Source of the DNA: Ramlibacter terrae
GTDB taxonomy: Bacteria; Pseudomonadota; Gammaproteobacteria; Burkholderiales; Burkholderiaceae_C
Assembly (NCBI GenBank): GCA_013127575.1
Contig: CP053418.1
Location: 3,472,001-3,536,000 of the forward strand
DNA length: 64,000 nt
Reading direction: 5' to 3'
Below are positions 1-64,000 of this stretch, piece after piece (within the stretch, counting starts at the first letter, position 1; every line of letters begins with the position of its first letter). The notes below the pieces were generated by a model. It was given only the letters and a program-made list of their open reading frames with translations, was not told where the DNA came from and did not search any database. A program made the position numbers and the translations under genes.

Positions 1-511
1 TGGCCTATGCGCAGCCCAGCTTCCCGCGCGGCCGGCCGCTGCTGGAGGCCGCGCGCGACCTCATGCACCGCATCCACGCGGACTTCGAATACGAGACGAC
101 CGCGACCGACGTCAACACGCCGGCGCTGGAAGCGCTGGAGCTGCGCAAGGGCGTGTGCCGGGACTGGCGCACGTGATGCTCGGCTGCCTGCGCTCGCTGG
201 GCCTGCCGGCGCGCTACGTCAGCGGCTACTTGTTGACGGTGCCGCCGCCCGGGCAGGCGCGCCTGGTCGGCAGCGATGCCTCGCATGCGTGGGTGTCCGT
301 GTACCTGCCCGGCGCGGACGACGCGCCCGGCGTGTGGACCGAGTTCGACCCCACCAACGACCGCGCGCCGGGCGAGGACTACGTGACCGCCCCGGGCCGC
401 GACTTCTCCGACGTCTCGCCGATGCGCGGCGTGATCCACGGCGGCGCCAGCCACCGGCTGCGGGTGGCGGTCACGGTGGCGCCGGCGGAAGCGATGACGA
501 ATGACGAATGA
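1..511 (+). CDS. Transglutaminase-like domain protein (5' end outside window)
   Basis: C-terminal part of a bacterial transglutaminase-like cysteine protease homologue. The frame opens at base 3 (AYAQPSFPRG) and carries the three family signatures: Cys in GVCRD, His in ASHAWV and Asp in FDPTND, the catalytic triad of the fold. The frame breaks near 164, where gactgg would read gacctgg (RDLAHVM) if one C of a CCTGG site were restored. The stop lies inside a palindromic repeat. A second homologue is at 37662-38544. Substrate unknown; family members of this type are often cytoplasmic, near circularly permuted ATP-grasp and alpha-E genes, but that context lies outside the window. Confidence 0.85.
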   Translation, partial: GLCAAQLPARPAAAGGRARPHAPHPRGLRIRDDRDRRQHAGAGSAGAAQGRVPGLAHVMLGCLRSLGLPARYVSGYLLTVPPPGQARLVGSDASHAWVSVYLPGADDAPGVWTEFDPTNDRAPGEDYVTAPGRDFSDVSPMRGVIHGGASHRLRVAVTVAPAEAMTNDE

Positions 512-602
512 CGAATGACCTCGGCTTCGCCTTCGATGACAGAATGACTGCGTCATCGGCGAAGCGTGTCATCGAAGCGCGCAGCGCCAGGTCATTCGTC
601 AT
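508..602. repeat. Palindromic intergenic repeat
   Basis: Two perfect 14-base inverted arms, ATGACGAATGACCT at 508-521 and AGGTCATTCGTCAT at 589-602, enclose a second pair (CTTCGATGACA at 531 and TGTCATCGAAG at 567). The left arm is preceded by tandem copies of ATGACGA. It lies between the transglutaminase stop and the RidA-like start and could fold as a long hairpin; it resembles dispersed REP-like elements. Confidence 0.6.
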
Positions 603-617
603 CGAGAGGAACACGGA

Positions 618-1068
618 ATGAGCGTCTACGACAAGCTGAAGCAACTCAACATCACGCTGCCGCCGGTGGCGACGCCCGCCGCGGCCTACGTGCCGTTCGT
701 GCGCACCGGCAACCTGGTGTTCCTGTCCGGCCACATCGCCAAGCGCGAAGGCAAGACTGGGTCGGCCAGCTCGGCACCAACATGAGCACCGAGGAAGGCA
801 AGGCCGCCGCCCGCGCGATCGCCATCGACCTCATGGGCACGCTGCACGCCGCGGTGGGCGACCTCAACCAGGTCAAGCGCATCGTCAAGCTGCTCGGGCT
901 GGTCAATTCAACGGGCACCTTCACCGAGCACCACCGGTGGTGAACGGCGCCAGCGAGCTGCTGGGCGAGGTGTTCGGCCCCGCCGGCGCGCACGCGCGCA
1001 GTGCCTTCGGCGTGGCGCAGATCCCGACCGGCGCCTGCGTCGAGATCGAGCTGATCGCGGAGGTCTGA
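618..1068 (+). CDS. RidA/YjgF-family protein
   Basis: Member of the RidA (YjgF/YER057c/UK114) family, whose best-known members hydrolyse reactive enamine/imine intermediates made by PLP enzymes. About 150 residues, beginning MSVYDKLKQL. Family features are the hydrophobic core LVFLSGHIA and the C-terminal stretch VNSTGTFTEHH...NGASELLGEVFG. This long form resembles the YjgH-like subgroup. The frame is broken twice: at 757 (actggg for acctggg) and at 935 (caccggtgg for caccaggtgg). Both are CCWGG sites, and restoring one base each gives an uninterrupted protein ending IELIAEV. It converges with the stress-protein gene downstream. Confidence 0.85.
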
Positions 1069-1069
1069 G

Positions 1070-1909: not shown

Positions 1910-1929
1910 GGTCTGCTCCTTTCGCGTGG

Positions 1930-2776: not shown

Positions 2777-4011
2777 ATGAAAAAGGTGATGCGGCCGCTG
2801 ATCGCGGCTCTGATGGGAGCCGGGCTGCTCGCCGGCGCGGCGCACGCCCGGGGCATGCCGGAGGTGAAGTTCAGCGGCTTCGGCACGCTCGGCATCGCCA
2901 CCACCGATGAAGACAACGCCGACTTCTCCAGCACCGTGTTCCAGCCGAACGGCGTGGGCGGCACGCGCCGCTGGTCCTACGGGCCCGACAGCAAGCTCGG
3001 CGGTCAGGTCGACGCCGTCTTCAACGATCGCTGGTCCGCCGTGATCCGGTGGTCGCGCAGCACGGCTACAACAACCACTGGACGCCGCAACTCGAGTGGG
3101 CCAACGTGAAGTTCCGGCCACCCCGGAACTGAGCGTGCGCGTCGGCCGCATCGCGGCGCCGTCCTTCCTGATCTCGGACTCGCGCTTCGTCGGCTACGCG
3201 CAGCCCTGGATCCGCCCGCCGGTGGAGGTGTACGGCGTGCTGCCCATCACCAACAACGACGGCGTCGATGTCTCCGGCGGCGCCAGTTCGGCGCCGCGTC
3301 GAACACCGTGCATGCCTACTACGGCCGCGCCAAGGCGAAGATCGAGTCCGGAACCGCCACGGCCAAGCCCGCCGGGGCATCAACGACACCGTGCAGTTCG
3401 GCGACCTGACGCTGCGCGCCGGCTACACCTACAACGACGTCGACCTCGACCTGCCCAACATCAACAAGCTGCTGGCCGGCATCGCCGCTTTCGGCGCCAT
3501 TCCGGGCCCGGTGGGCGACCAGGCCCGCGCGCTGGCCAACCGCTACGCCACGCGCGGCACGGAAATGTCGGCGGTGTCGCTTGCCGCCAGCTACGACCCC
3601 GGCCGCTGGTTCGCCATGACCGAGGTGGTCTCGCTCCGCGCCGAAGGCATCCTCTCCGACAGCCGCTCCCGGTACGTCACAGGCGGCTACCGCTTCGGCA
3701 CCGTCACGCCCTACGTGACCTATGCCCGCACCCGCGCCACCGTCCCGGTCGAGCCCGGCGTCCCGGTGCCGGCGGCGGCGCCGCTGAACGCGGGCCTGAA
3801 CGCGGCGCTGAACAACCAGTTCAGCGGCACGCAATCGACCGTGACGACCGGCGTCCGCTGGGACTTCATGAAGAACGCGGCGCTGAAGGCGCAGTACGAC
3901 CACATCCGCACCGGCGCCAACTCCGCCGGCCGGCTGACGGACGTGCGGCCCGGCTTCGTGCGCGGCAGCAACGTCAACCTGTTCAGCGTGGCGCTGGACT
4001 TCGTCTTCTGA
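2777..4011 (+). CDS. Outer-membrane beta-barrel porin-like protein
   Basis: About 412 residues. A Sec signal peptide (MKKVMRPLIAALMGAGLLAG...AHA) is followed by alternating beta strands and a C-terminus ending VALDFVF, the terminal aromatic typical of BAM-assembled outer-membrane barrels. The N-terminal strand KFSGFGTLGI and the RVGRIAAPSFLISDSRFVGY segment suit a family of putative Comamonadaceae porins. Four CCWGG-type breaks occur at 3047, 3115, 3275 and 3372. Restoring the lost A or T gives VIQVVAQHGYNNHW, KFQATPELS, VSWRRQFGA and AKPAWGIND in one continuous protein. Followed by a small periplasmic binding protein and a chemoreceptor. Solute specificity unknown. Confidence 0.8.
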
Positions 4012-4021
4012 GGAGGCTGCC

Positions 4022-4418: not shown

Positions 4419-4428
4419 GAGCTGCCCC

Positions 4429-5965
4429 GTGAAGTTCAGGACCCGGATCTGGATGCTGCCGTTCAGCGCGGCGGTCGTGTTCGTGATCGGCGTGGCCGTC
4501 AGCTACGCCGTCGGCGCGCGCACGCTCGAGGCGCTCAACCGCCTGAGCCGCATCGACGGTCCTGCGTTGCAGCAGCTGCGGCTGGCGGAACAGGGCGTCG
4601 AGCAGTTCCGCCTGCTGCTGCAGTCCGCCGCCGTCGAGGGCGACGCGGACCGCCTCAAGGAAGTGCAGGCTTCGGTGGAGCGCACCCGCTCCGTGCTCGG
4701 CGCGCTCGCCGCGATCGAAGGCCAGGCGCCGCTCGCCAACAGCCTGCGCACCGCCGGGACGCCTACCAGTCCGCTGCCCGGGCGCGGCACAGGCGATGCT
4801 GAAGAAGGCCGACGCGGGCGACCTCGTGCAGCGCATGCAGGCGGCGCAGGGAACCCTCGACCGCGAATTGCGGGCCGCCGTCGATGCGGGCGTGGCGCGC
4901 ACCGGCGACCTGCAGGCGCAGGCGGTGCGCGGCGTGGGCGACGCGCTGTGGGTCACGCTGGTGATCGGCATCGTCGTGCTCGTGGTGCTGGGCCTGGCCT
5001 CGCGGCTGGTGATCGCTTCGGTGTGGCGCGACCTCGGCGAGGAGCCGCACACGCTGCACCAGCTCACCCGCCGGATCGCCGACGGCGACCTGCAGGTCGA
5101 AACACGCGCTTCCGGCGATGGCCGCTCCCTGCATGCGGCCATCGGCAGCATGGCGGGCCGGCTGCGCGACACGGTCGGCACCATTCGCGCGGCGAGCGAA
5201 TCCATCGCCACCGCATCGACGGAAATCGCCGCCGGCAACGCCGAACTGAGCGCGCGCACGGAGGCCTCGGCTTCCAACCTGCAGCACACCGCGTCCTCCA
5301 TCGCGCAGCTGACCGTCAGCGTGCGGCAGAGCGCCGAAGTCGCGGGCGAAGCGCGGCGCATCGCCGGCGCCGCCAGCGAAGCCGCCTCGCGCGGCGGCCG
5401 CATCGTGTCGCAGGTGGTGGCCAACATGGACGAGATCAGCCAGGCGTCGCGCCGCATCGCGGACATCATCGGCGTGATCGACGGCATCGCCTTCCAGACC
5501 AACATCCCGGCGCTGAACGCGGCGGTGGAAGCGGCGCGCGCAGGCGAACAGGGCCGCGGCTTCGCCGTGGTCGCCGCCGAGGTGCGCAACCTGGCGCACC
5601 GTTCCGCCACGGCGGCCCGCGAGATCAAGGAGCTGATCGGCACTTCCACCGGCAAGGTCGACGGCGGCTCGAAGCTGGTGCAGGAAGCCGGCCAGGCGAT
5701 GACCGAGATCGTGGCCGGCGTTCAGCGCGTCAACGCGATGATCGGCGAGATCAGCACCGCCGCCAGCGAGCAGTCGGCCAGCATCGGCGAAGTGCACCGC
5801 TCGGCCAACCACCTCGACGAGATGACCCAGCAGAACTCGGCGCTGGTGGAAGAAGCCGGCGCCGCCGCCGCCAGCATGCGGGAGCTGGCGGGGCAGCTGA
5901 TGAACGAGGTCCACGCCTTCCGCGTGGACACCGTCACTCGACCCGCGTTACCGTCAGCGGCCTGA
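4429..5965 (+). CDS. Methyl-accepting chemotaxis protein
   Basis: Transmembrane chemoreceptor of about 513 residues with a GTG start. Order: TM1 (about 8-30), a short four-helix-type periplasmic domain, TM2 (LWVTLVIGIVVLVVLGLA), HAMP and the coiled-coil signalling domain. The CheA/CheW-contacting hairpin is clear (GIAFQTNI..ALNAAVEAARAGEQGRGFAVVA). Two frame breaks at 4754 and 4779, each a lost T of CCTGG, join the N-terminal part to the rest. At 5506-5510 the nearly invariant Leu of the hairpin reads Pro (atcccgg for atcctgg), probably a miscalled base. Signals through CheA/CheY; the ligand is unknown, but the preceding binding protein is a candidate partner. Confidence 0.9.
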
Positions 5966-8262
5966 AGCCCAGGTCCGCCTGCTTGCCCTTGCGGCCGCGG
6001 GCGCCCCGGGCGTTGTTCAGCGAGCGGATCTCCAGCACCTCCTCGCGGTCCTTGTCGCCGCGGCCGAGCCCGGTGATGCGCACCGAGCGGGTGTAGGCGG
6101 CGGCGCCCGCGAGTTCTTCCTTCGGCTCCGAGGTCGATCAGCATCAGGCCGCGGCCGCCGTTGGCCATCGGCTTCAGTTCCTTCATCTCGAAGGTGAGGA
6201 TGCGCTTGCCGGAGGAAGCGCAGCACACGTGCGTGGCGAAGGTGCCGGCGCCCGGAACACCGATGAACGACGGCCGGCACACCGTCTCGCCGGCGCCGAG
6301 CGACACGAACGACTTGCCGCCCTTCTGCCGCGAGACCATGCTTTCGACCGCCGCCACGAAGCCGTAGCCCCCGAGTTGGACAGCAGCAGCCACACGTTGC
6401 CCGCCCCCGCGAAGTAGTGCACCAGCTGCGTCCCCGCCTCCAGTTCGATGAAGGTCGTGAGCGGCTGGCCGTCGCCGCGCGCGCCCGGCAGCAGCGACAC
6501 CGCCACCGAGTAGACGCGCCCGTTGCTGCCGAAAGCCAGCAGCGTGTCGACGGTGCGGCATTCGAAGGTGCCGTACAGCCCGTCGCCCGCCTTGAAGGCG
6601 AAGCTCGACGCGTCGTGGCCGTGGCCCCGGCGCGCGCGCACCCAGCCCTTCTGCGACACGACCACCGTGACCGGCTCGTCGATCACCTTCACTTCGGCCA
6701 CGGCCTTCTTCTCGGCCGGATGAGCGTGCGGCGCGCGTCGCCGAACTGCTTGGTGTCGCCCTCGATCTCCTTGATCATCAGGCGGCGCAGCGCCGCCGGC
6801 GAGCCGAGGATTTCCTCCAGCTTGCCCTGCTCGGAGCGCAGTTCCTTCAGCTCCTGCTCGATCTTGATGGCCTCCAGCCGCGCGAGCTGGCGCAGCCGGA
6901 TCTCGAGGATGTCCTCGGCCTGCCGCTCCGACAGGGTGAAGCGCGCCATCAGCGCCTGCTTCGGCTCCTCGGCCGCGCGGATGATGGCGATCACCTCGTC
7001 GATGTTCAGCAGCACCAGCTGCCGGCCTTCGAGGATGTGGATGCGGTCCATCACCTTGCCCAGGCGATGGCGCGAGCGCCGCTCGATCGTGCGCTGGCGG
7101 AACTCGATCCACTCGGTGAGCATCAGCCGAAGCGACTTCTGCACCGGCTTGCCGTCGAGTCCGACCATGGTCAGGTTGATCGGCGCGGACGTCTCCAGGC
7201 TGGTGTGCGCCAGCAGCGACGTGGTCAGTTCGGCCTGGTCGATGCGGCTCGTCTTGGGCTCGAACACCAGGCGCACCGGCGCGTCCTTGCTCGACTCGTC
7301 GCGCACCGTGTCCAGCACGGCCAGCACGGTCTGCTTCATCTGCACCTGTTCGGCGCTCAGCGCCTTCTTGCCGGCCTTGACCTTCGGGTTGGTCAGCTCC
7401 TCGATCTCTTCCAGCACGCGCTGGGTGCTGACGCCCGGCGGCAGCTCGGTCACCACCAGCTGCCACTGGCCGCGCGCCAGTTCCTCGATCTTCCAGCGCG
7501 CGCGCACCTTGAGCGATCCGCGGCCCGTGCGGTACGCCTCGGCGATGTCGTTCGCGCTGCTGATGATCTGGCCGCCGCCCGGATAGTCGGGGCCGGGCAG
7601 CAGCGCCAACAGGTCTTCGTCGGACAGCTTCGGGTTCTTCACCAGCGCCACGCAGGCCTCGGCCACCTCGCGCAGGTTGTGGCTGGGGATCTCGGTGGCC
7701 AGGCCGACGGCGATGCCGCTGGCGCCGTTGAGCAGCGCGAACGGCAGCCGCGCGGGCAGCACCACCGGCTCCTGCGTGCTGCCGTCGTAGTTGAGGACGA
7801 ACTCCACCGTGCCTTCGTCGATCTCGTCCATCAGCAGGTTGGCGATCTTCGACAGGCGCGCCTCGGTATAGCGCATCGCCGCCGCGCCGTCGCCGTCGCG
7901 GCTGCCGAAGTTGCCCGGCCGTCGATCAGCGGATAGCGCTGCGCGAAGTCCTGCGCCATGCGCACCAGCGCGTCGTACGCGGCCTGGTCGCCGTGCGGAT
8001 GGAAGCGGCCCAGCACGTCGCCGACCACGCGCGCGCTCTTGACGGGCTTGGGGCCGGTGCCGGTGCCGAAGCCCAGGCCCATGCGGTACATCGAATACAG
8101 GATGCGCCGCTGCACCGGCTTCTGGCCGTCGGCCACGTCGGGCAGCGCCCGGCCCTTCACCACGCTCAATGCGTATTCGAGGTAGGCGCGCTGCGCGTAG
8201 GTGGCGAGGTCCAGCCCGGTGTCGTCGCCGCCGTCGGCGAAGGTGATGAGGTCTTGCTCCAT
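5934..8262 (-). CDS. parC: DNA topoisomerase IV subunit A
   Basis: Breakage-reunion subunit of topoisomerase IV, which decatenates replicated chromosomes. About 776 residues, from [12 protein letters not shown] to VTRVE. The GyrA/ParC core is evident: [25 protein letters not shown], and MRYTEARLS with the catalytic Tyr. Breaks at 7918 (CCAGG), 6717 (CCAGG), 6370 (run of G) and 6130 (gacctcggag for gacctggag, one base added) interrupt it. Absence of the long gyrase-type C-terminal domain and the nearby parE favour ParC over GyrA. The last 32 bases overlap the convergent chemoreceptor gene. Confidence 0.93.
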
Positions 8263-10811: not shown

Positions 10812-12778
10812 TCAGACGTCGATCTCCACTTCGTCCCCGTGCAGCTCCATCAGCTCGCGCCGCGCCGCCGCCTCGCCCTTGCCCATCAGCTTGGTGATCA
10901 GGCTTTCGGTGCCGGCGAAGTCGAACTTGCCCAGCTGCACCGGCAGCAGCCGGCGCGTGTCGGGGTTCAGCGTGGTTTCCCAGAGCTGCTCGGCGCTCAT
11001 CTCGCCCAGACCCTTGAAGCGGCTGATGGTCCACTTGCCTCGCCCACGCCTTCCTTGCGCAGCTTGTCGAGGATGGCGGTGAGTTCGCCTTCGTCCAGCG
11101 CGTACATCTTGGACGCCGGCTTCTTGCCACGCGCCGGCGCGTCGACGCGGAACAGCGGCGGCCGCGCGATGTAGACGTTGCCGGAGTCGATCAGCTTGGG
11201 GAAGTGGCGGAAGAACAGCGTGAGCAGCAGCACCGGATGTGCGAGCCGTCGACGTCGGCGTCCGACAGGATGCAGATCTTGCCGTACCGCAGGCCGGTGA
11301 GGTCCGGCGTGTCGTTCGGCCCGTGCGGATCGACGCCGATCGCCACCGAGATGTCGTGGATCTCGTTGTTGGCGAACAGGCGGTCGCGCTCGACCTCCCG
11401 GTGTTGAGCACCTTGCCGCGCAGCGGCAGCACGGCCTGCGACTCCTTGTCGCGGCCCATCTTGGCGCTGCCGCCGGCGGAGTCGCCCTCGACCGGGGAAC
11501 AGCTCGTTGTGCGACAGGTCCTTGCTCTCGCAGTCGGTCAGCTTGCCGGGCAGCACGGCCACGCCGGAGCCCTTGCGCTTCTCGACCTTCTGGCCCGCCT
11601 TCTGCCGCGACTGCGCGGCGCGGATGGCGAGTTCGGCCAGCTTCTTGCCGTACTCGACGTGCTGGTTCAGCCAGAGTTCGAGCGCGGGGCGCACGAAGCT
11701 GGAGACGAGCCGCACGGCGTCGCGCGAATTCAGGCGTTCCTTGATCTGGCCCCGGAACTGCGGGTCGAGCACCTTGGCCGAGAGCACGTAGGAGGCGCGG
11801 GCGAACACGTCCTCGGGCAGCAGCTTCACGCCCTTGGGCTGCAGGTTGTGCAGCTCGATGAAGCTCTTGACCGCGTTGAACAGGCCGTCGCGCAGGCCGC
11901 TTTCGTGGGTGCCGCCGGCGGTGGTGGGGATCAGGTTGACGTAGCTCTCGCGCACCGGCTGGCCGTCTTCGGTGAAGGCCACGCACCGGGGAAGCGCCCT
12001 CGCCTTCCGCGAAGTTGTCGTTGCTGTCGGCGAAGCCCTCGCCCTCGAACAGCGGGATCACCGGGTCGCCGGTCAGCGTCTGCATCAGGTAGTCGCGCAG
12101 GCCGCCCTTGTACTGCCAGCTCTGCACGTCCTTCTTCTTCTCGTCGTGCAGCTGCACCGTCACGCCCGGCATCAGCACCGCCTTGCTGCGCAGCAGGTGG
12201 GCCATCTCCGCCATCGGGACCGCGGTGGTCTCGAAGTACTTCGCGTCGGGCCAGGCGCGCACGGTGGTGCCCTGCTTGCGGTCTTCGGGGCCGGCCTTGC
12301 GGACCTTCAGCGGCTCGATCACGTCGCCGCCGGCGAACACGATGCTGGCGACTGGCCTTCGCGGTAGGTGGTCACTTCCAGCCGCTTCGCCAGCGCGTTG
12401 GTGACGGACACGCCGACGCCGTGCAGGCCGCCGGAGAAGCTGTAGGCGCCGCCCTTGCCCTTGTCGAACTTGCCGCCGGCGTGCAGCCGCGTGTACACCA
12501 GCTCGATCACCGGCGCCTTCTCTTCGGGATGCAGGGCTGAACGGGATGCCGCGGCCGTCGTCCTCGATGCTCACCGAGCCGTCGGGGTGCATGAAGACGC
12601 GGATGCGCTTGCCGTGGCCGGCCAGCGCCTCGTCGGCGGCGTTGTCCAGCACCTCCTGCAGGACGTGCAGGGGGTTGTCGGTGCGGGTGTACATCCCCGG
12701 GCGCTGCTTGACGGGCTCGAGGCCCTTCAGCACGCGGATGGAACCTTCGGAATACTCGGTCGACGGTTTGGTGGCCAT
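10812..12778 (-). CDS. parE: DNA topoisomerase IV subunit B
   Basis: ATPase subunit of topoisomerase IV, about 655 residues. GHKL motifs are present: [38 protein letters not shown]. The TOPRIM motifs are [16 protein letters not shown] and [10 protein letters not shown], and the C-terminus reads [10 protein letters not shown]. Breaks: about 12536, 12353 (ccag for ccagg), 11987 and 11495 (both ccccgg for cctgg, one base added), 11400 (ccgg for cctgg), 11234 (ccgg for ccagg) and about 11040. Five of the seven are CCWGG sites. A TACAAT hexamer ends 10 bases before the ATG and there is no Shine-Dalgarno sequence, so the mRNA may be leaderless. Confidence 0.93.
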
Positions 12779-12936: not shown

Positions 12937-14162
12937 ATGCATTCCGCCGCCGCCCCCAAGCTTTCCATGACGCAGGTGCTCGCCTGCGGTGCGTTGATCG
13001 TCACGCTGTCCATGGGCATCCGCCACGGCTTCGGCCTGTGGCTGCTGCCGATCAGCCAGGCGCATGGCTGGGAGCGCGGCACGTTCTCCTTCGCGCTGGC
13101 GATCCAGAACCTCTCGTGGGGCGTGTTCGGCATCTTCGCCGGCATGCTGGCCGACCGCTTCGGCGCCTTCAAGGTGCTGGTCGGGGGCTGCATCGCTTTC
13201 GCGCTGGGCCTGGTCGGCATGGCCCTGGCGAAAGATCCGCTGACGTTCACGTTGACCGCCGGCGTCCTGATCGGCGCGGCGCAGGCCGGCACCACCTACG
13301 CGGTCGTCTACGGCGTGATCGGCCGGCAGATCGATCCCGCCAAGCGCTCGTGGGCGATGGGCGTCGCGGCGGCCGCCGGCTCGTTCGGCCAGTTCCTGAT
13401 GGTGCCGGTGGAAGGCGCCCTGATCCGCAACTTCGGCTGGGACAATGCGCTGCTGGTGCTCTCCGCCATCGCCCTGCTGATCGCGCCGCTGGCCCCGGGC
13501 CTGCGGGAACCGGGCTTCGGCGGCGGCGCCGCGCCGCTCAAGCGCGAGCAGACGATCGTGCAGGCGCTGGGCGAAGCGTTCAAGTACCCGAGCTTCCAGT
13601 TGCTGATGGCGGGCTACTTCGTCTGCGGCTTCCGGTGGTGTTCATCGGCGTGCACATGCCCAGCTACCTCAAGGACAAGGGTCTGTCGCCGGAAGTGGCC
13701 AGCTACGCGCTGGGCCTGATCGGCCTGTTCAACGTGTTCGGCACCTACATCGCCGGCACGCTGGGCCAGAAGATCGAGCGCCGCAAGATCCTGGCCGGCA
13801 TCTACTTCGGCCGCTCCATTGCCATCACCCTGTTCCTGCTGGCGCCGCTGTCGCCGATGTCGGTCTACATCTTCTCGGCCGTCATCGGCATGCTGTGGCT
13901 CTCGACCGTGCCGCCGACCAACGCCACCATCGCCGGCATCTTCGGCGTGGCGCACCTGTCGATGCTGGGCGGCTTCGTGTTCTTCAGCCACCAGATCGGT
14001 TCCTTCCTCGGGGTCTGGCTGGGCGGGCTGCTGTACGACCGCACCGGCAGCTACGACATCGTCTGGTACCTGTCAATCGCGCTGGGCATCTTCGCCGCCA
14101 TCGTCAACCTCCCGGTGCGCGAAGCGCCGATCGCGCGCGGCCCGGCGCCGCAGGCGGCATGA
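12937..14162 (+). CDS. Major facilitator superfamily transporter (OFA-like)
   Basis: Inner-membrane secondary transporter of about 408 residues with 12 predicted helices. MFS features include MGIRHGFGLWLLPISQAHGW in the first repeat, GMLADRFGAFKVLVGG (the loop 2-3 motif) and GQKIERRKILAG in the second half. Overall it resembles the oxalate/formate-antiporter-type (OFA) group; the substrate cannot be read from sequence. One break at 13633 (ttccggtgg for ttccaggtgg, CCAGG) between FVCGF and VVFIGVHMPSY. The stop overlaps the next start as ATGA, so it leads a tight operon with a tiny membrane protein, an SDR and a methyltransferase. Confidence 0.88.
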
Positions 14163-16585: not shown

Positions 16586-17663
16586 GTGAAGTCATTCGTG
16601 AAGTACGGCCTGCTGGTCGTCGTCGCCGCCTTGTCGGCCTGTTCGGTGCTGGAGAACGACAAGGTCGACTACAAGAGCGCCAGCAAGGGCATCTCGCTCG
16701 AAGTGCCGCCCGACCTGACGCAGCTGTCGCGCGATTCGCGCTACGTGGTGCCCGGCGGCGCCGTCACCGCCAGCACGTTCCAGCTCGGCCAGTCGGTGCC
16801 CGGCCTGCCCACCGCGGCGACCGCCGTCGGCGACGTGCGCGTGGAGCGCTCGGGCAACCAGCGCTGGCTCGTCGTCAACCGCCCGGCCGACCAGCTGTGG
16901 GGCCCGGTGCGCGATTTCTGGCAGGAGAGCGGCTTCCTGCTGGCCATGGACCAGCCCAACCCGGGCATCATGGAAACCGACTGGGCCGAGAACCGCGCCA
17001 AGATCCCGCAGGACTTCATCCGCAACACGCTGGGCCGGCTGATCGACTCGGTGTATTCGACGTCCGAGCGCGACCGCTTCCGCACGCGGCTGGAGCGCTC
17101 GCCCACCGGCGCCACCGAGATCTACATCAGCCACCGCGGCATGATCGAGGTCTACAGCAGCACGCAGAAGGACAGCACCGTCTGGCAGCCGCGCGCCACG
17201 GATCCGGAACTCGAAGCCGAATTCCTGCGCCGCCTGATGGTCAAGCTGGGCGTGCCGGCCGAACAGACCCGCGCCGCCACCGCGGCCGGCGCCAACACGC
17301 CGACCTCGCGCGTGGCCACCGTCAACAACCAGCCGGTCGTGCAGATCGACGAAGGCTTCGACCGCGCGGCGCCGCGTCGGCCTGGCGCTCGACCGCACCG
17401 GCTTCACCGTCGAAGACCGCGACCGCAGCCGTGGCACCTACTTCGTCCGCTACGTGGCGCCCAACGCCGACCGCAAGGACCCGGGCTTCTTCGGCCGCCT
17501 GCTCAATCGCGCCGCGCCGGTCGAGGCGCCGATCAAGTACCGCATCGCCGTCAAGAGCGAAGGCCAGTCCAGCACGGTGTCGGTGCTGACCGCCAACGGC
17601 ACGCCGGAAACCTCCGCCAACGCACAGCGCATCGTGCAGGTCATCGCCGACGACCTGAAGTAA
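16586..17663 (+). CDS. bamC: Outer membrane assembly lipoprotein BamC
   Basis: Lipoprotein accessory subunit of the BAM complex, about 359 residues. GTG start after a GAGAGGGG site; lipobox VVAALSAC, then the BamC N-terminal signature (EVPPDLTQLSRDSRY) and two helix-grip domains (RWLVVNRPADQLWGPVRDFWQ and LALDRTGFTVEDRDR). The frame breaks at 17367, where gcgcggcgcc would read gcgcctggcgcc (RAWRRVGL), two bases lost from a CCTGG. It follows dapA by 41 bases and abuts the next gene. Confidence 0.92.
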
Positions 17664-23593: not shown

Positions 23594-24082
23594 ATGGAAA
23601 TCACAAGCACTTGCGTCGTCGCGCTGACGTGGACGCTGAAGGACACGCTGGGCGAAGAACTCGATCGGCTGGAGGAGCCCGTGGAGTTCGGTGGGCGGCC
23701 GCGACCTGCTGGGCAAGATCGAGGAAGCGCTGCAGGGCCACGAAGCGGGCGACAAGCTCGACCTGCACCGGAGCCCGAGGACGCCTTCGGCGACTACGAC
23801 GAAACGCGCGTGTTCCTCGAGCCGCGCGGCATCTTTCCGAAAGAGCTGGAAGAAGGCATGACCTACGAGCAGTTGCCCGAAGGCGCCACCAGCGAGGATC
23901 TGCCGGCGGATGCGCTGTTCACCGTGACGGAGATCTATCCCGAGCACGTGGTGCTCGACGCCAACCACCCGCTCGCCGGCATCGCGTTGCGGCTGCACCT
24001 GAAGGTGGAAGCGGTGCGCGAGGCCACCGAAGAAGAAGTGGGCGCGGGCACGCTGGGCGCGGGCTTCTTCCAGATCGGGTGA
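23594..24082 (+). CDS. FKBP-type peptidyl-prolyl isomerase, SlyD-like
   Basis: About 163 residues. Begins MEITSTCVVALTWTLKDTLGEELD; after repair it reads EPVEFLVGGRDLLGKIEEALQGHEAGDKLDLHLEPEDAFGDYDE, the SlyD/SlpA-type FKBP core with an inserted flap domain, followed by VVLDANHPLAG. No His-rich tail. Breaks at 23690 (two bases lost at ttcctgg) and 23769 (caccgg for cacctgg), both CCTGG sites. Likely a cytoplasmic prolyl isomerase and chaperone. Confidence 0.88.
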   Translation: MEITSTCVVALTWTLKDTLGEELDRLEEPVEFGGRPRPAGQDRGSAAGPRSGRQARPAPEPEDAFGDYDETRVFLEPRGIFPKELEEGMTYEQLPEGATSEDLPADALFTVTEIYPEHVVLDANHPLAGIALRLHLKVEAVREATEEEVGAGTLGAGFFQIG

Positions 24083-26478: not shown

Positions 26479-29063
<2,585 letters not shown>

Positions 29064-29082: not shown

Positions 29083-30711
<1,629 letters not shown>

Positions 30712-42442: not shown

Positions 42443-43413
42443 TCAGTCCAACTTCAGCTTCGCCGAATCGACCACCTTCTTGTACACCTCGTACTCCGCC
42501 TTGATCTGCGCGGCGAACTGGTCGGGCGTGTTGCCGATGATGATCGAGCCGGTGTCCTCGATGCGCTTGCGCACCGCCGGTTCCTGCAGCGACTTGACGG
42601 TGGCGGCGTGCACCTTGTCGACCACTTCCTTCGGCAGGCCCTTGGGGCCGAGGATGCCGTAGTAGGCCATCCGGTTCACCGGCTCCAGCCCCACTTCCTT
42701 GAAGGTCGGCACGTTCGGCAGTTCCTTCAGGCGCTGGGGCGCGGCCACCACGATCGGCACCAGCCGGCCGTCCTTGATGAAGGGCAGCGCGGAGGGCAGG
42801 TTGTCGAAGATCATCGGGACTGGCCGGCCACCGTGTCGTTCAGCGCCGGGCCGGCGCCGCGGTACGGGATGTGCGTGACGAAGGTGCCCGACAGGTTCTT
42901 GTACAGCTCCATCTGCAGGTGGCCGATGCCGCCGGTGCCGGACGACGAGTACGAGTACTTGCCGGGATTGCGCTTGAGCTCGGCCACGAAGGACTTGTAG
43001 TCCTTGGCGGGGAAGCTCGGGTGCACCGCGATGATGTTGGGCGTCGCGGCGATGTTGATGATCGGCGTGAAGTCCGTGACCGGGTTGTAGGGGATCTTGG
43101 CGTTGATCGCCGGGTTGGCCGCCGTGGTCGACACGGTGGCCACGCCCAGCAGGTAGCCGTCCGGCGCGGCGCGCACGGTTTCCGTCGCGCCGATCACGCC
43201 GCCGCCGCCGGCCTTGTTCTCGACGATCACGCTCTGGCCCGGGTTCTTGCCGAGCGGCTCGGAGATCACGCGGGCGATGATGTCGGTGGTGCCGCCGGGC
43301 GCGAAGGGCACCTGCAGTTTCACGACCTTGTTCGGATAGCCCTGCGCGAAGGCGGGCGCGGCCAGCACGGCCAGCAGCCCGGTGGTCGCTGCGATCCGGG
43401 AACGGCGCTTCAT
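42443..43413 (-). CDS. Bug/TctC-family periplasmic solute receptor (3)
   Basis: About 323 residues. Signal peptide [24 protein letters not shown], then [54 protein letters not shown] and [15 protein letters not shown]. One break at 42821 (ggccagtc for ggccaggtc, CCAGG). Similar in layout to receptors 1 and 2 but clearly diverged. Ligand unknown. Confidence 0.88.
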
Positions 43414-47983: not shown

Positions 47984-48460
47984 CTAGATCGGATAGATCA
48001 GCGAGTTCAAGACCATCTCGCTGTCGTAGACGCAACGCCGGCTGGCCAGCTTCAGGCCAGCCGGCGTTCGTTCGAAGAGGTCGATGTAGCGGCCCACGTT
48101 GTAGACCTCGCTCGCGTCGCCCGGACGCGTGCGGAACACCGCGTAGTTCGCCTGTGCGCGAATGCGGTCCCCCTCCTGCCCCAGCACCTGCGCGCAGCCC
48201 ACCACGTGGCGCGTGTAGTACGGCCCGTGGTAGATCGTCTGCGTGATGCCGTAGACGCGGTCCTTCATCATCCCCTGGCTCTCCAGGTCGATCAGCGCCA
48301 GCGGCAGGTTGCGGTCGAAGTTCTCGCGCGCCTGCACGGTGTAGCGCGCGTCGGCCAGGAAGAAGCCCGGCCAGTCGTCGAAGCGGCGCTCGTCGAGCGC
48401 GGCGGCGTACGCGGCATTGAAGCCGTCGATCTCCAGTTGCAGCAGCAGCGCCTCGTTCAT
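47984..48460 (-). CDS. Aromatic-ring-hydroxylating dioxygenase, beta subunit
   Basis: 158 residues, intact, with the cystatin-like/NTF2 fold: NAAYAAALDERRFDDWPGFFLADARYTVQ, MMKDRVYGITQTIYHGPYYTRHVVG, GRYIDLFERTPAGLKLASRRCVYDSEM. Structural partner of the Rieske subunit encoded just upstream; the ATG overlaps its stop (ATGA). Confidence 0.9.
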   Translation of the reverse strand: MNEALLLQLEIDGFNAAYAAALDERRFDDWPGFFLADARYTVQARENFDRNLPLALIDLESQGMMKDRVYGITQTIYHGPYYTRHVVGCAQVLGQEGDRIRAQANYAVFRTRPGDASEVYNVGRYIDLFERTPAGLKLASRRCVYDSEMVLNSLIYPI

Positions 48461-49782
48461 ACGCCCATCACCTTGCGCCAGTAGGCGTACATGCTGCGGA
48501 TCAGCGTTTCCGTCACCATGTGCTCGGTGCCGCCGGTGCCGGTGCCGCCCAGCTCGCACAGCGTGCTGCCCTCCTCGCCCCACTGCGCGAAGCCTTCCCG
48601 GCTGAACTGGATGACTTCGCCGTCGTCGGCGCTCACGAAGCCCGCGGGACCGAAGAGGTTGGCCTGCCGCAGGCGGCGGCGCGTCATCTCCTCGCTGTCG
48701 TCGGCAAAGCCGAAGTGCGTCCAGACGAAGTCGAACTCGCCTTCGCCGCGCGGCACGATGTGGCGCGTCGACAGCGAGTTGACCTGCTGCTGGATGATCA
48801 GGCTCGGGAACAGCGTGATCATGGTGACCGACGGCATGATCTCCGTGCCGGGATTCGACGGATCCGGCACCTTCCACCACGGCTCCGGCACCACGTCGAG
48901 AATGCGGTCGTCGTGCAGCACCATGTCCTGCTTGAAGCTGGTCACGCCCTGCGTCACCGCCTTGTTCTCGCCGCCGTCGTTGCGGCGTGAAATCATCACC
49001 GCGTGGCGGCCGTGTTCGTCCATCACCATGCGGCTCTTCTGGTCGGCGCGCCAGAGCCCGAAAGTGACGAACCACGTGTGCAGCAGGCCCGGGTGGTACG
49101 GGTCCTTGATGTTCTCCATCATCAGCTTCCAGTTGCCCGGAATGCGCTGGCGGTTGTAGCCCAGCAGCGCGAGCTTGCGGCCGGCGAAGATGCGGTCCAG
49201 CCACGGCATGACGTTCGGTCCGAGGTAGTCCTCGAGCGGCTCCGCGGCGTCGCTGAACGTGGCGAACACCAGCCCGTGCAGCACCGCCACCCGCAGGCGC
49301 GTCAGGCCGTGCTGCTTCAGGTCGAAGCCTTCCGGCATGCCGCCGTTGACGCAGGGCTGTCCCTCGGCGTCGGTCGCCGCGACGCCGTCCTTGAAAGGCA
49401 GGCCGGCCAGCTCGCCATTGAGCTTGTATGTCCACTGGTGGTACGGGCAGACGAAGCTGCGGGCATTGCCGTGCGGCTGCTGGCAGAAGCGCACGCCGCG
49501 GTGGGCGCAGCGGTTCTCCACCACGCGGATGCCGTGGTCGGTGCCGCGGTCCTTGGGCGCCACGCGGTCGCGCACCAGGATCACCTGGCGCTCGCCAACC
49601 CAAGTCAGGCGGTAGTCGCCGACGTTCGGCACCTCCACCTCCAGGCCCACGTAGCACCAGTGCGGGCCGTAGAAGATCTTCTCCAGTTCGCGGCCGTAGA
49701 GCTGGGCGTCGGTGTAGGCCCAGAAGGGAACGCGGCTGGAGCCGGTGCCGTTCCAGCGGGACAGGGTTTCGGGCGCATTCAT
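48457..49782 (-). CDS. Rieske non-heme iron oxygenase, alpha subunit
   Basis: 441 residues, intact. Rieske [2Fe-2S] motif ENRCAHRGVRFC ... FVCPYHQWTY (CxH-17-CxxH), then the mononuclear iron site MENIKDPYHPGLLHTWF (D-H-H), with further ligands expected near the C-terminus. Overall layout resembles anthranilate/salicylate-type two-subunit dioxygenases. No ferredoxin, reductase, dehydrogenase or regulator gene is adjacent. Substrate not predictable; presumably an aromatic acid. Confidence 0.9.
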   Translation of the reverse strand: MNAPETLSRWNGTGSSRVPFWAYTDAQLYGRELEKIFYGPHWCYVGLEVEVPNVGDYRLTWVGERQVILVRDRVAPKDRGTDHGIRVVENRCAHRGVRFCQQPHGNARSFVCPYHQWTYKLNGELAGLPFKDGVAATDAEGQPCVNGGMPEGFDLKQHGLTRLRVAVLHGLVFATFSDAAEPLEDYLGPNVMPWLDRIFAGRKLALLGYNRQRIPGNWKLMMENIKDPYHPGLLHTWFVTFGLWRADQKSRMVMDEHGRHAVMISRRNDGGENKAVTQGVTSFKQDMVLHDDRILDVVPEPWWKVPDPSNPGTEIMPSVTMITLFPSLIIQQQVNSLSTRHIVPRGEGEFDFVWTHFGFADDSEEMTRRRLRQANLFGPAGFVSADDGEVIQFSREGFAQWGEEGSTLCELGGTGTGGTEHMVTETLIRSMYAYWRKVMGV

Positions 49783-50064: not shown

Positions 50065-50715
50065 TCAGGCGCGCGCGGCGCCCTTGCGCCGCGCCTGCCC
50101 GGCGCCCGCCAGCACGATCACGCCCGGGACCAGGATGGCGCCCCAGATGATCTTGTCGAGGTTTTCCTTCACCCGGGGAATGCTCCCCGGGAAGAAGCCT
50201 GCCGTGACGATGCCCACGACCCAGATGCCGCCGCCGATCACGTTGTAGGCGGTGAACCTGACGCGGTTCATGTCGGCCACGCCGCCCACGAAAGGCACGA
50301 AGGTGCGCATGAAGGGGAAGAAGCGCGCCAGGATGATCGTGATGCCGCCGTACTTCTCGTAGAACGCGTGCGCCTGGTCGAACGCCGCCCGGTTGAACAG
50401 CCGCGACTGCTCCCACTGGAACACGCGCGGCCCGACCCAGCGCCCGATGGTGAAGTTGGTCTGGTCCCCCAGCACCGCGGCGACCCACAGCAGCCCGATC
50501 GCCAACGGATAGCTCATGAGCCCGACGCCGCACAGCGCGCCCACCACGAACAGCAGCGAATCGCCGGGCAGGAAAGGCATCACCACGACGCCCGTCTCCA
50601 CGAAGATGATCAGGAACAGCAGCGCATACACCCAGTTGCCGTAATTCGTCACGAAGGTGTGCAGGTGGACGTCGACGTGCAGGATGAAGTCGACGAGAAA
50701 GGTGACGAGTTCCAT
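50065..50715 (-). CDS. DedA-family membrane protein
   Basis: 216 residues with five or six transmembrane helices: YGNWVYALLFLIIFVETGVVVMPFLPGDSLLF, IGLLWVAAVLGDQTNFTIGRWVG, and the DedA/SNARE-associated core FYEKYGGITIILARFFPFMRTFVPFVGGV. These proteins recycle undecaprenyl phosphate or translocate phospholipids in some bacteria. At 50174 IPRVKEN replaces the family IPWVKEN (ccccgg for ccctgg), probably a miscall. GATAAT ends 6 bases upstream of the ATG. Confidence 0.9.
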   Translation of the reverse strand: MELVTFLVDFILHVDVHLHTFVTNYGNWVYALLFLIIFVETGVVVMPFLPGDSLLFVVGALCGVGLMSYPLAIGLLWVAAVLGDQTNFTIGRWVGPRVFQWEQSRLFNRAAFDQAHAFYEKYGGITIILARFFPFMRTFVPFVGGVADMNRVRFTAYNVIGGGIWVVGIVTAGFFPGSIPRVKENLDKIIWGAILVPGVIVLAGAGQARRKGAARA

Positions 50716-50721
50716 CGGGCG

Positions 50722-50727
50722 ATTATC
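50722..50727 (-). promoter_or_regulatory. -10-like hexamer GATAAT, DedA gene
   Basis: GATAAT on the minus strand ends 6 bases before the DedA ATG, in a 43-base gap shared with mutL. Candidate leaderless start. Confidence 0.45.
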
Positions 50728-50744
50728 CCTGCCGGGGTGCGGCC

Positions 50745-50750
50745 TAGAAT
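50745..50750 (+). promoter_or_regulatory. -10-like hexamer TAGAAT, mutL
   Basis: TAGAAT ends 8 bases before the mutL ATG with no Shine-Dalgarno sequence between (CGCGGCCC). Candidate leaderless start. Confidence 0.45.
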
Positions 50751-50758
50751 CGCGGCCC

Positions 50759-52552
50759 ATGAGTGCCGTGCTGTCGCCTTCGCCGCCCCGCCCCATCCGC
50801 GAGCTGCCGGATGAACTGGTGAGCCAGATCGCGGCGGGCGAGGTTGTCGAGCGGCCCGCCTCCGTGGTGCGCGAACTGGTCGACAACGCGCTCGACTCCG
50901 GCGCGACGCAGGTCACCGTGCGGCTGCTGGCCGGCGGCGTGCGGCTGGTTTGCATCGAGGACGACGGCTGCGGCATCGCCCGCGAAGAACTGCCGCTCGC
51001 GCTCAAGCGCCACGCCACCAGCAAGATCGGCTCGCTGGCCGACCTCGAAGCCGTGGCCACGATGGGATTCCGCGGCGAAGCGCTGGCCGCCATCGCTTCC
51101 GTTTCCGAACTCAGCCTGCTCTCCCGCCCGCAAGGCCAGGCCAGCGCCTTCCTGCTCGACGCCGGCAGCGGCGAGCTGCGGCCGGCCGCGCGATCGGTAG
51201 GCACGACGGTCGAAGTGAAGGAACTGTTCTTCAGCACCCCCGCGCGCCGCAAGTTTCTCAAGAGCGACGGCACCGAACTGGCGCATTGCGTCGAAGCGGT
51301 GCGCCGCCACGCACTGGCGCGGCCCGACGTCGGCTTCACCATCTGGCACGAAGGCAAGGTGTGCGAGCAGTGGCGCGCCGCCACGCCCGACCAACGCCTC
51401 GCCGACGTGCTGGGCGAGGACTTCTGGGCAACAGCGTGCGCGTCGACTTCCACGCCGGCCCGTTGCGCATCAGCGGCCGCGCCGGCATTCCCGACGCCGC
51501 GCGCTCGCGCGCCGACTGGCAGTTCGCGTACGTCAACGGCCGCTACGTGCGCGACAAGGTCATCACGCACGCCGCCCGCAGCGCCTACGAAGACCTGCTG
51601 CACGGGCATCGGCAGCCTGTGTACGCGCTCCACCTGCAGATCGACCCGTCGCGCGTGGACGTCAACGTGCACCCCACCAAGATCGAGGTGCGCTTCCGCG
51701 ACAGCCGCGAGGTGCACCAGGCGGTGCGGCATGCGGTGGAAGGCGCACTGTCCGCTCCGCGCGCCGGCACCGCCGCAGCGCCCGCAACCCTGCCGCTCCC
51801 GCCCATTCCGGCAGGGGCTGGGCTTCCGGACAGCGCCGGATGGCGCCAGCCCGCGATCCCGTTCGCGCCCGTGGTGGGCACGGTCGTTTCCGACCTCTCG
51901 GCCCTCTGGTCGGTTGCGCCCGCGCCGCAAGCCGCGCCCGCGGCTGCGCCCACCGAACTGCCGACGGGCGAATGGCCGCTCGGCAAGGCGATCGCACAGC
52001 TGCAGGGCATCTACATCCTCGCGGAGAACGCCCGGGCCTGGTGGTCGTCGACATGCACGCGGCGCACGAGCGCATCGTGTACGAGCGGCTCAAGACGCAG
52101 ATGGACGCGCAGGCGATCCGCAGCCAGCCGCTGCTGATCCCCGCCACCTTCGCCGCCACGCCCGAGGAGATCGCCACCGCCGAGGCGAACGAGGCCACGC
52201 TGCAGGCGCTCGGGCTCCGGTGACGCCCTTCTCGCCGCGCACGCTTGCGGTGCGCGCGGTGCCCACCGCGCTCGCGCAGGGCGACGCCGTGGAGCTGGCA
52301 CGCAGCGTGCTCGCCGAACTGGCGCAGCACGATGCCAGCAGCGTGGTGGAACGCGCCCGCAACGAGCTGCTGGCCACCATGGCCTGCCACGGCGCCGTCC
52401 GTGCCAACCGCAAGCTCACGCTGGAAGAAATGAACGCCCTGTTGCGCCAGATGGAGGAAACCGATCGCTCGGACCAGTGCAACCACGGCCGGCCCCCACG
52501 GCGCCAGCTGACGGTGCGCGAGCTCGACGCGCTGTTCCTGCGCGGCCGATGA
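50759..52552 (+). CDS. mutL: DNA mismatch repair protein MutL
   Basis: GHKL ATPase linking MutS to MutH-type or intrinsic incision. About 598 residues: IRELPDELVSQIAAGEVVERPASVV, ELVDNALDSGA, EDDGCGI, TMGFRGEALAAIASVS, GTTVEVKELFFSTPARRKFL. After a Pro/Ala-rich linker comes the dimerisation domain (VVVDMHAAHERIVYERLK, ACHGAVRANRKLT, CNHGRPPRRQL). Breaks at 51425 (ttctgg for ttcctgg), 52033 (gcccggg for gcccaggg) and 52218 (ctccgg for ctccagg). All are CCWGG sites. Confidence 0.95.
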   Translation: MSAVLSPSPPRPIRELPDELVSQIAAGEVVERPASVVRELVDNALDSGATQVTVRLLAGGVRLVCIEDDGCGIAREELPLALKRHATSKIGSLADLEAVATMGFRGEALAAIASVSELSLLSRPQGQASAFLLDAGSGELRPAARSVGTTVEVKELFFSTPARRKFLKSDGTELAHCVEAVRRHALARPDVGFTIWHEGKVCEQWRAATPDQRLADVLGEDFWATACASTSTPARCASAAAPAFPTPRARAPTGSSRTSTAATCATRSSRTPPAAPTKTCCTGIGSLCTRSTCRSTRRAWTSTCTPPRSRCASATAARCTRRCGMRWKAHCPLRAPAPPQRPQPCRSRPFRQGLGFRTAPDGASPRSRSRPWWARSFPTSRPSGRLRPRRKPRPRLRPPNCRRANGRSARRSHSCRASTSSRRTPGPGGRRHARGARAHRVRAAQDADGRAGDPQPAAADPRHLRRHARGDRHRRGERGHAAGARAPVTPFSPRTLAVRAVPTALAQGDAVELARSVLAELAQHDASSVVERARNELLATMACHGAVRANRKLTLEEMNALLRQMEETDRSDQCNHGRPPRRQLTVRELDALFLRGR

Positions 52553-56680: not shown

Positions 56681-56702
56681 AGCGCCTTGAGGTTCCTGTT
56701 TG

Positions 56703-58223: not shown

Positions 58224-58250
58224 CCGCCGGGCGGGCACGCGGCCGCGCCG

Positions 58251-58256: not shown

Positions 58257-58262
58257 GGGCGC

Positions 58263-61825: not shown

Positions 61826-61837
61826 AGCCGCGGCCGC

Positions 61838-62182
61838 CTAGACGCGGCGCACTTCCATGATGCCGCCGCCGGTGGCCGCGTCGTAGATCACCCGGTCGCG
61901 CAACGCGAGGTGCAGCAGGATCTTGCCTGCGTTCCACGCCACCAGCCGGTTGACGGCCACGCCGGCGAACACCAGGCCGAAGCCGGGCCACGTTGCCCCG
62001 CCCAACGCGAGGGCGAGGCCGGCGCCGATCATCGCCATCACGATCGGCAGCAGCCACAAGCGCTGCCGCACCCAGCCGCGGGCCAGCTTGGGATCGACGA
62101 TGACGCGAAAGCGGCCCTGCGGCAGGCCGGTGCGGAAGTCGTCGTGGCTGACGTACTCCGCCAGGTTTTCGTCGATGTTCAC
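61838..62182 (-). CDS. Small membrane protein downstream of the amidohydrolase
   Basis: 114 residues, intact. GTG start overlapping the amidohydrolase stop (GTGA). Soluble N-terminus VNIDENLAEYVSHDDFRTGLPQG, two hydrophobic helices (LLPIVMAMIGAGLALALGG and GFGLVFAGVAVNRLVAW), and a short C-terminus RDRVIYDAATGGGIMEVRRV. No recognised family. Confidence 0.65.
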   Translation of the reverse strand: MNIDENLAEYVSHDDFRTGLPQGRFRVIVDPKLARGWVRQRLWLLPIVMAMIGAGLALALGGATWPGFGLVFAGVAVNRLVAWNAGKILLHLALRDRVIYDAATGGGIMEVRRV

Positions 62183-63673
62183 TTTCCCGCTTCCAGGCTC
62201 GCCGGGTCCAGCCGGCGCCCGCCGATCCACACCGCGCGCACCGTGTCGTACGCCTCGACCGATTCGAGCGGCGAACGTGCGAGCAGCAGCAGGTTGGCGC
62301 GCTTGCCCGCCTCGACGGTGCCCACGCGGTCGGCGAGGCCGAAGGCCTTGGCGTTGTTCAGCGTCGCGGCCTCGAGCACCTGCCGCAGGCTCACGCCGGC
62401 CGCCACCAGCCGCTTCATCTCCGGGTAGCCGTTGAATCCCGGCAGGTTGCCCGGCGTGGGGCCCGACGGCGTGTCGGTGCCGAACAGGAAGCGTGCGCCC
62501 TTGCCCGCGAGATAGCGCGTGGACTCCGTGCCGCGCGCGAGCACGGCGTCGAACACCACGCGCATGCGCTCGTCGGGGGCGCCTCCCGACAAGTCCTCCT
62601 TGAACCAGCGTCCGGCCGGCGAGCGGTACCACTCGAGCAGACCCGCGGGCACGACGCGCCGCACGCCGGGCTTGTCGAAATAGCCGGGGTCGTACAGCAC
62701 GCGCAAGCCACCGAGCACCTGCAGGGTCGGCATGTAGCCGATCTTGCGCGCCGCTACCGGTCGAGCACCTCACGCGCCGAATCGGGCAAGGCGGTGGCCC
62801 CCGGCGCGCCGTTCCAGTCCACAGCCCGTGCACGAAGATGTCGGCGCCGCCATCGACGCCGAAGCGCTGCGCCTCGATCGACGTGGCGTGCAGCAGCACC
62901 GGCAGCCTGGCGCCATGGGCGGACCGGACGATGTCGGCGAACAGCTCGGGGCTGGGCACGGGCAGGTTGGTGTCGCGCCCGAAACCGCGTTCGAAGAAGG
63001 TCTTGATGCAGATCGCGCCCGCGCCCGTCGCCCGCGCCACCGACGCCTGCGGGGTGCGGGCGGCCGCGTCGGCACCGGACAGCTTGGGGTCGAGCACCGC
63101 GTTGGGGAAGACGAGGTCGCGCACGCGCGACGGCGCGTAGTGCGTGGGGTAGCCATCGCGCAGCGGCAGCGCGCCGCAGTGGTGGACGTCGGGATGCGCG
63201 GGCGCGTTGGCGAAAGCATCGATCACCGCACGGTTCTCGCCGATCAGGTCGATGACCGTGGTGTAGCCGTAGCGCAGGAACGATCGCGGTGCCTGCGCGC
63301 GGTAGTCGCGCGCCAGCAGCGGATGCCGGAACTCCATGTCGTGCGAGAAGCCGGGGATGCCGCCGAGGTGCACATGGCTGTCGATGAGGCCGGGCATGAG
63401 GACGAGGCCCGTGGCGTCGAACACCGGTGCGTTGCGCGGCGCGCCCACGGGCAGCGCGGGCACGACAGAGGTGATGCGCTCGCCTTCGACCAGCACGTCG
63501 AGCTTCTGCCCGTCGTCCGAGCGTTCGGGCGAGATCACGGTGGCGCCGACGATCCACAGCCTCGCATCGTCGGCGATGGCGGCGTGGGCCGTCACCAGCG
63601 CCCACGCAGCGACCGCGGCGCGCAACGAGGTCTGGATCGAAAAGGCGCGCTGGCGGACGGTGGCGGGTTGCAT
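62179..63673 (-). CDS. Amidohydrolase-superfamily protein, secreted
   Basis: About 498 residues. N-terminal signal region (SLRAAVAAWALVTAHAAIA). Metal sites: LMPGLIDSHVHLGG (HxH), carboxylated-Lys candidate in AGAICIKTFFERG, VLLHATSIEA, DIFVHGLW and FGTDTPSGPTPGNLPG. Imidazolonepropionase/prolidase-like type, ending SLEAGK. Breaks at 62817 (gactgg for gacctgg) and 62757 (gaccggtag for gaccaggtag), the latter creating a false stop. Coupled to the membrane protein downstream. Substrate unknown. Confidence 0.87.
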
Positions 63674-63767
63674 GTCGGCTCCATGCGGGCATGGGGCTGT
63701 CCGCGTCGATGGCATCTTAGGCATGTGCGCGCTTCCTCGCCAGTGCTCACCGCGTGGAGCGCAGCGG

Positions 63768-64000
63768 CTACTTGCGCAACTGGGTGGCCTTGGCCGAAAT
63801 GCACTCGCCGGTGGCGCCGTCGGCCACGCAGACGTAGGCGTCCCCCTTGGCCAGCCGGCCGTGGATGACGTACTCCTTGCCGGCGACGGGGTGGAACTCC
63901 ACTGCGCCCTCCACGGCCAGAAATCGCCCGCCACGCGAAGCGCGAGCCCGGATGGGTGCGGCACTGACGTGGGTTCCGACGATCCGCAGGCGCACCGGGC
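63768..64000 (-). CDS. Hypothetical protein (5' end outside window)
   Basis: C-terminal 77 residues or so of a protein whose start may lie beyond the window. A GTG at 63995 is possible but the frame stays open to the edge. Beta-rich: RLRIVGTHVSA, EGAVEFHPVAGKEYVIHGRL and GDAYVCVADGATGECI. No recognised domain. Confidence 0.5.
   Translation of the reverse strand, partial: PVRLRIVGTHVSAAPIRARASRGGRFLAVEGAVEFHPVAGKEYVIHGRLAKGDAYVCVADGATGECISAKATQLRK

Follow-up and report, generated by a model that had tools for sequence, protein, structure and literature searches.

Consensus errors at methylated motifs are an already known type of artefact in genomes assembled from nanopore reads. According to passages of PMC6591954 (2019), approximately 70% of the consensus errors in Klebsiella pneumoniae lay within Dcm motifs when then-current Oxford Nanopore Technologies (ONT) callers were used with their default models. 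In agrobacterial ONT assemblies, passages of PMC12710330 place most single-nucleotide polymorphism errors near likely methylated motifs and report fewer errors with methylation-aware callers. ONT data also detect CCWGG cytosine methylation in Escherichia coli, as stated in passages of PMC8495745. Here, we analysed a stretch of 64,000 bases (the window; bases 3,472,001–3,536,000) of the genome of Ramlibacter terrae, a single contig of 5,277,406 bases, in which many genes are broken at or near CCWGG sites. The breaks are almost certainly nanopore consensus errors at CCWGG, arising from a strain that presumably methylates this motif. Compared with the Dcm-site errors in the passages of PMC6591954, those in the window are found in a betaproteobacterium outside the Enterobacteriaceae, and the candidate enzyme is encoded within a restriction–modification cassette. 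The agrobacterial errors, as given in the passages of PMC12710330, concerned GANTC and CTGCAG and newer callers, while the motif here is CCWGG.

The window is part of the genome published for R. terrae H242T (=KACC 21667, JCM 33922), a soil bacterium. The passages of the species description used here (PMC9705899) give the accession CP053418, a length of 5,277,406 bp and isolation from soil, and also describe Ramlibacter montanisoli B156, the larger contig of which is 4,459,501 bp. Both strains were read on the MinION and assembled by Unicycler 0.4.7, and the main text contains neither the word Illumina nor the word polish. Judged by the methods and main text of that paper, the assembly thus relied on nanopore reads and was not polished with short reads, as the initial annotation of the window had supposed from the DNA. 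The same passages list 5,653 genes for H242T, of which 2,807 are protein-coding, and 4,741 genes for B156, of which 3,639 are protein-coding. With so few of the H242T genes protein-coding, this record, which represents the type strain of its species, is an unreliable basis for calling genes absent, counting pseudogenes or building protein trees. We found no earlier notice of the artefact for the H242T genome in a limited literature search and the passages of PMC9705899.

Errors at the centre of CCWGG

For comparison with relatives, the window was cut into 300-base pieces, and each was aligned with syntenic relatives of the same genus, ten at most; 189 of the 320 pieces, with at least three relatives each, were usable and gave 37,850 bases, and the remaining pieces were dropped. 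At CCWGG, the centre base in the window was correct at 102, mismatched at 29 and missing at 19 of 150 positions, compared with 938, 6 and 1 of 945 positions in nine relatives pooled. The centre was therefore in error at 48 of 150 positions in the window against 7 of 945 in the relatives (Fisher P=2e-37). First- or last-base variants of CCWGG in the window served as a control and gave 547 correct centres, 17 mismatches and no gap (n=564). Gaps were likewise absent from the other control pentamers, with 239 correct and 7 mismatched centres for GCWGC, 161 and 2 for CGWCG, 42 and 0 for GGWCC, and 35 and 4 for CCSGG. Because the control pentamers show no centre gaps, both the outer bases and the central W of CCWGG are needed for the errors. 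Among columns that 90% or more of the relatives conserve, the excess peaked at W, which was mismatched in 23% and missing in 15%, compared with 0.6% and 0; it was smaller at the base next to W, slight at the first base of the motif and not evident beyond it.

CCWGG also ranked first for indels among up to 512 pentamer classes, an enrichment that the initial annotation had proposed as a check on its claim that gene-breaking errors sit at this motif. At the 116 CCWGG sites conserved in 60% or more of the relatives, the window had 23 intact, 70 substituted and 23 indel-touched sites. The indel-touched fraction (23/116) gave P=4e-23 against a 1% background, and the ranking was the same at other conservation thresholds. 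The pentamers next in rank, namely ACCTG, GCCTG, CACCT, TCCAG and CCCAG, mostly overlap CCWGG. When a second error motif was sought outside CCWGG neighbourhoods, the 9,473 columns held 4 gaps, and a convincing gap excess was absent from every pentamer. In the same neighbourhood-free search, with up to 512 classes tested, a mismatch excess was seen at ACCGG/CCGGT (7/18, P=5e-6) and GAGCC/GGCTC (6/17, P=5e-5); these may be leftovers or natural divergence.

Genomes with and without a similar methyltransferase

The genomes of H242T and B156 share a paper, a sequencing platform and an assembler, and they differ in that a cytosine C5-methyltransferase (PF00145) match was found in the former and none in the latter. 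In B156, the CCWGG centre was unchanged at 122 of 122 positions, and none of 97 conserved CCWGG sites carried an indel. The pair is thus a good natural control for methylation-linked error. Two further relatives, G007 and G016, carry methyltransferases similar to that of H242T (63% identity for the G016 enzyme), and the centres were unchanged at 106/106 and 103/105 positions, respectively. Since these centres are nearly unchanged, possession of such a putative CCWGG methyltransferase does not by itself change the real sequence.

The methyltransferase cassette

The initial annotation had called for a search of the genome for an EcoRII/Dcm-type methyltransferase, and one M.EcoRII/Dcm-like match was found. 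This single PF00145 match (C1:7094-8188, 365 aa), beside which a badly broken second enzyme gene could escape detection in so damaged an assembly, scored 280.7 bits against PF00145 (cut-off 22) and 319.3 bits against TIGR00675, the dcm superfamily (cut-off 100.65). As it lies over the superfamily cut-off and under the strict subfamily cut-off, we label it Dcm-like, not Dcm. Its best matches in the PDB were the Dcm-type structures 3lx6 and 3me5, which align in one stretch that takes in the variable region; the HhaI alignment is split into two pieces on either side of that region. The CCWGG specificity suggested by this similarity fits the error motif.

A gene for a Vsr mismatch endonuclease adjoins the methyltransferase gene downstream on the same strand and is followed by a convergent gene for an MvaI/BcnI-family nuclease (PF15515, 128.1 bits, cut-off 25). 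By eye, this nuclease carries a PD-(D/E)XK motif consisting of PD, four residues and E-x-K, the spacing that a review gives for BcnI. It was found in 2 of 60 same-genus genomes searched, the H242T genome and G007. The cassette occupies 5,312–8,188, in the first 20 kb of the contig and outside the window; all three frames are open, and it holds no CCWGG, with 5.9 expected. The system resembles EcoRII/Dcm C5-methyltransferases with Vsr in being nearest to Dcm-type structures and in the adjoining Vsr gene. It differs from them in length (365 aa against 472 profile positions), in scoring under the subfamily cut-off and in its partner nuclease, which is of the MvaI/BcnI family by Pfam.

The classical methylase partners of MvaI/BcnI nucleases make N4-methylcytosine, and with a nuclease of this family adjoining, CCWGG could be methylated in that form by an MvaI-type enzyme and not as 5-methylcytosine (5mC). 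We consider this very unlikely. The PF01555 (N6_N4_Mtase) profile had no match in the genome, and the partner that is present is a C5 enzyme. Moreover, Vsr goes with C5 methylation, and its gene sits between those of the methyltransferase and the nuclease.

Substitutions at CCWGG and depletion across the genome

The initial annotation described the errors as indels at CCWGG, which held, and overlooked the many substitutions there. Centre substitutions in fact outnumbered gaps (29 against 19), and 28 of the 29 were A>G or T>C; this spectrum of W>S (S, C or G) changes is reported from the present data alone. When the 116 conserved sites were tabulated with the strands folded, the window read CCGGG at 20, CC-GG at 14, CGAGG at 13, CCACG at 10 and GCAGG at 8, with 23 intact. 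Part of the changes at the outer bases is natural divergence, because conserved CCWGG sites were intact at just 509 of 740 in the nine relatives pooled.

The motif is depleted in stretches across the genome. The window has 135 CCWGG sites (2.11/kb), and 20 other 20-kb stretches across the genome have 1.86/kb pooled, each between 1.1 and 2.75/kb, compared with 3.1–7.5/kb (pooled, 5.73/kb) in the nine relatives. CCSGG is raised, at 6.70/kb in the window and 5.68/kb in the other stretches against 3.9–5.5/kb in the relatives. From these densities, we estimate that 41% of CCWGG sites are missing relative to the lowest relative, 68% relative to the pooled value and 75% relative to the highest; very roughly, this would amount to 7,000 sites genome-wide by the lowest yardstick and 20,000 by the pooled one. 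Where one short palindrome is depleted and the genome also encodes a methyltransferase to match, the combination can serve as an inexpensive test for such errors in other nanopore-only genomes.

Could the sites have been truly lost, by 5mC- and restriction-driven mutation or by avoidance? The restriction–modification cassette is present and itself free of CCWGG, and G016, with its similar methyltransferase, has the lowest density of the relatives. The kind of change observed speaks otherwise. Deamination of 5mC turns the inner C into T and does not produce W>S changes or deletions. In the 116-site table, a lone C>T change at the inner C is never seen. Avoidance makes no frameshifts, and at the codon level it predicts an excess at third positions, the reverse of what was found. 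Within CCWGG, the window differed at 26 of 213 first and second codon positions and seven relatives at 22 of 1,290; third positions showed no excess (29 of 151 in the window; 3–25% in relatives), pieces without a clear third-position signal being excluded from this test. The nearly unchanged centres of G007 and G016 argue in the same direction. We therefore regard real loss of CCWGG as highly improbable for the breaks, and a minor share of the depletion may stem from it.

In G016, the density of 3.14/kb corresponds to an observed/expected ratio of 0.84, which may be real avoidance. Among the 881 CCWGG sites that survive in the window and the 20 other stretches, a flanking C was 0.50 times and a flanking G 1.38 times as frequent as among 3,357 sites in relatives. 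This preference could stem from either the caller or the enzyme, and we favour the caller. That the correctly read sites were un- or half-methylated in the cell, the assembly thus recording the context preference of the enzyme, seems unlikely.

Frame-changing differences in the window

In the 37,850 aligned bases, we identified 77 window-specific clusters of differences with a net length not a multiple of three: 50 had lost one base, 13 had gained one, 5 had lost two and 9 were of other types. At least one relative had CCWGG within 14 columns of 51 of the 77 clusters, against 36% of random positions, and at least half of the relatives had it at 35. Of the single-base events, 41 of 63 were compatible with CCWGG (approximately 11 expected). 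For single-base losses, CCWGG had the lowest P value (37 of 50 against 10.6 expected). Other pentamers sharing CCGG or CGG were high too in this test, and the raw count for CCGAG/CTCGG was larger (39 against 15.5 expected); the tests based on relatives therefore carry the argument. Protein-guided repair had been said in the initial annotation to restore CCWGG at nearly every break. The enrichment is borne out by these counts, and 'nearly every' is too strong.

Of 17 breaks that the initial annotation had placed individually, 15 could be aligned, those at 3047 and 38492 being outside the alignable pieces. At all 15, a frame-changing difference confined to the window lay no more than 12 bases away; CCWGG was present nearby in at least one relative at 14, the exception being 51425. 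The difference at 13633 was confirmed in comparison with eight relatives, seven of which have CCWGG nearby, as was that at 17367, also with seven of eight; two differences at 27666..27677 had CCWGG nearby in ten of ten relatives, and those at 23689..23690, 42819..42821 and 11494..11495 in seven of ten, six of seven and eight of eight, respectively. A class of added bases, also proposed earlier, is real at its four named sites, and taken alone it says little for the motif, which ranks fifth among gains.

When differences were recounted by a rule shared with the relatives, the window had 78 in 37.8 kb (2.06/kb), eight relatives excluding B156 had 106 in 200.6 kb (0.53/kb) and B156 had 29 in 32.2 kb (0.90/kb). 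The window thus exceeds the relatives by approximately 58 events in the aligned part, or approximately 100 when scaled to 64 kb, and the earlier figure of about 80 gene-breaking errors is a fair one. The raised frame-changing differences of B156 do not lie at CCWGG and have no clear motif; they are probably general nanopore error in the B156 assembly.

General nanopore error from homopolymers or coverage, independent of methylation, would account for this increase in a genome from the same platform. In the window, 27% of lost bases lay beside runs of at least three, as did 26% in B156 (background, 15%). Of the 22 single-base events incompatible with CCWGG, 17 had such a run within 8 bases (random, approximately 37%). 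Yet such error leaves the motif unexplained, as B156 had no indel at its 97 conserved CCWGG sites, and lost bases were hardly concentrated at runs of at least four (4.9% against a background of 3.1%). It probably explains part of the breaks away from CCWGG, and there is very little chance that it explains the breaks as a whole.

Origin of the gene breaks

Taken together, these results support the interpretation of the initial annotation as essentially right: the gene breaks are not mutations, and much of the apparent gene damage in the window is probably not real. We propose that the strain, with its Type II restriction–modification cassette of an M.EcoRII/Dcm-like methyltransferase, Vsr and an MvaI/BcnI-family nuclease, most likely methylates CCWGG genome-wide, and that native, unamplified DNA was presumably read on the MinION. 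5mC in the pore would shift the signal of the k-mers over CCWGG, and a caller trained without 5mC would drop or miscall bases there, alike in most reads, so that the error would persist into the consensus. The central W would be lost or called S, giving CCGG or CCSGG, and the remaining bases of the motif would be affected too.

Several observations weigh against this explanation. The methyltransferase falls under the strict Dcm subfamily cut-off (NF007772 PRK10458; 418.9 against 710 bits), and the MvaI/BcnI family includes enzymes of other specificity, such as BcnI. By the same calling, the relatives have a background of 0.53 frame-changing events per kb, or approximately 20 per 37.8 kb. The local test left 22 of the 63 single-base events incompatible with CCWGG; for 8 of these, a third or more of the relatives still have CCWGG. 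Among the 13 single-base gains, CCWGG was only the fifth class (4 seen against 0.7 expected), after top classes such as GGCCC/GGGCC and GCCCC/GGGGC. The near-motif controls at the centre base comprise changes of the first or last base only. Completeness by CheckM is 95.6% in the passages of PMC9705899, compared with 63.7% for the source genome in the present analysis, in which 14 of 18 same-genus relatives reached at least 90%.

Genome decay, with real indels and many pseudogenes, deserves hardly any credence: in its favour, the deposited record itself contains the differences, and frame switches affect 30 of the 46 genes with a match, but the breaks cluster at one five-base motif, strike core genes (CTP synthase, enolase and mutL), spare the outer-base variants of that motif for no reason that decay could supply (0 gaps in 564 centres) and lie in a genome that is not reduced (5.28 Mb, compared with 3.3–6.1 Mb in 18 same-genus relatives).

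Genes of the window

By tblastn with relatives' frames, frame switches were found in 30 of 46 matched window genes; this count is only approximate, because the gene table was built from the frames with the highest scores in six relatives, among which antisense frames may be present in this high-GC DNA. The statement that core genes are broken too was confirmed by three genes that change frame. In the CTP synthase region, a relative's 639-aa frame matches 26511–28206 across two window frames. The open frame at 26529..28490 (+) joins CTP synthase (PF06418 and part of PF00117) to the start of a DAHP-synthetase-family gene (PF00793), and this apparent fusion, as read from the domain matches, is a sign of frame breaks. 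For the enolase gene (29426..30708, +), the match to a relative's 427-aa frame is divided between two window frames. The mutL gene (50657..52549, +; PF08676 and pieces of the ATPase) corresponds to a relative's 610-aa frame that matches 50759–52549 in three window frames. An open piece of a gene for topoisomerase IV/gyrase subunit A (PF00521) lies at 6689..7873 (−). The sites at 262, 713 and 868, which the initial annotation gave as intact, indeed read CCTGG or CCAGG. Finally, a gene for a 440-aa Rieske/ring-hydroxylating oxygenase (48457..49779, −) gave a single-frame match, and the genus placement was based on it; the best named matches of this window protein, with 80 of 587 matches kept, were to Ramlibacter, a genus within the Comamonadaceae.

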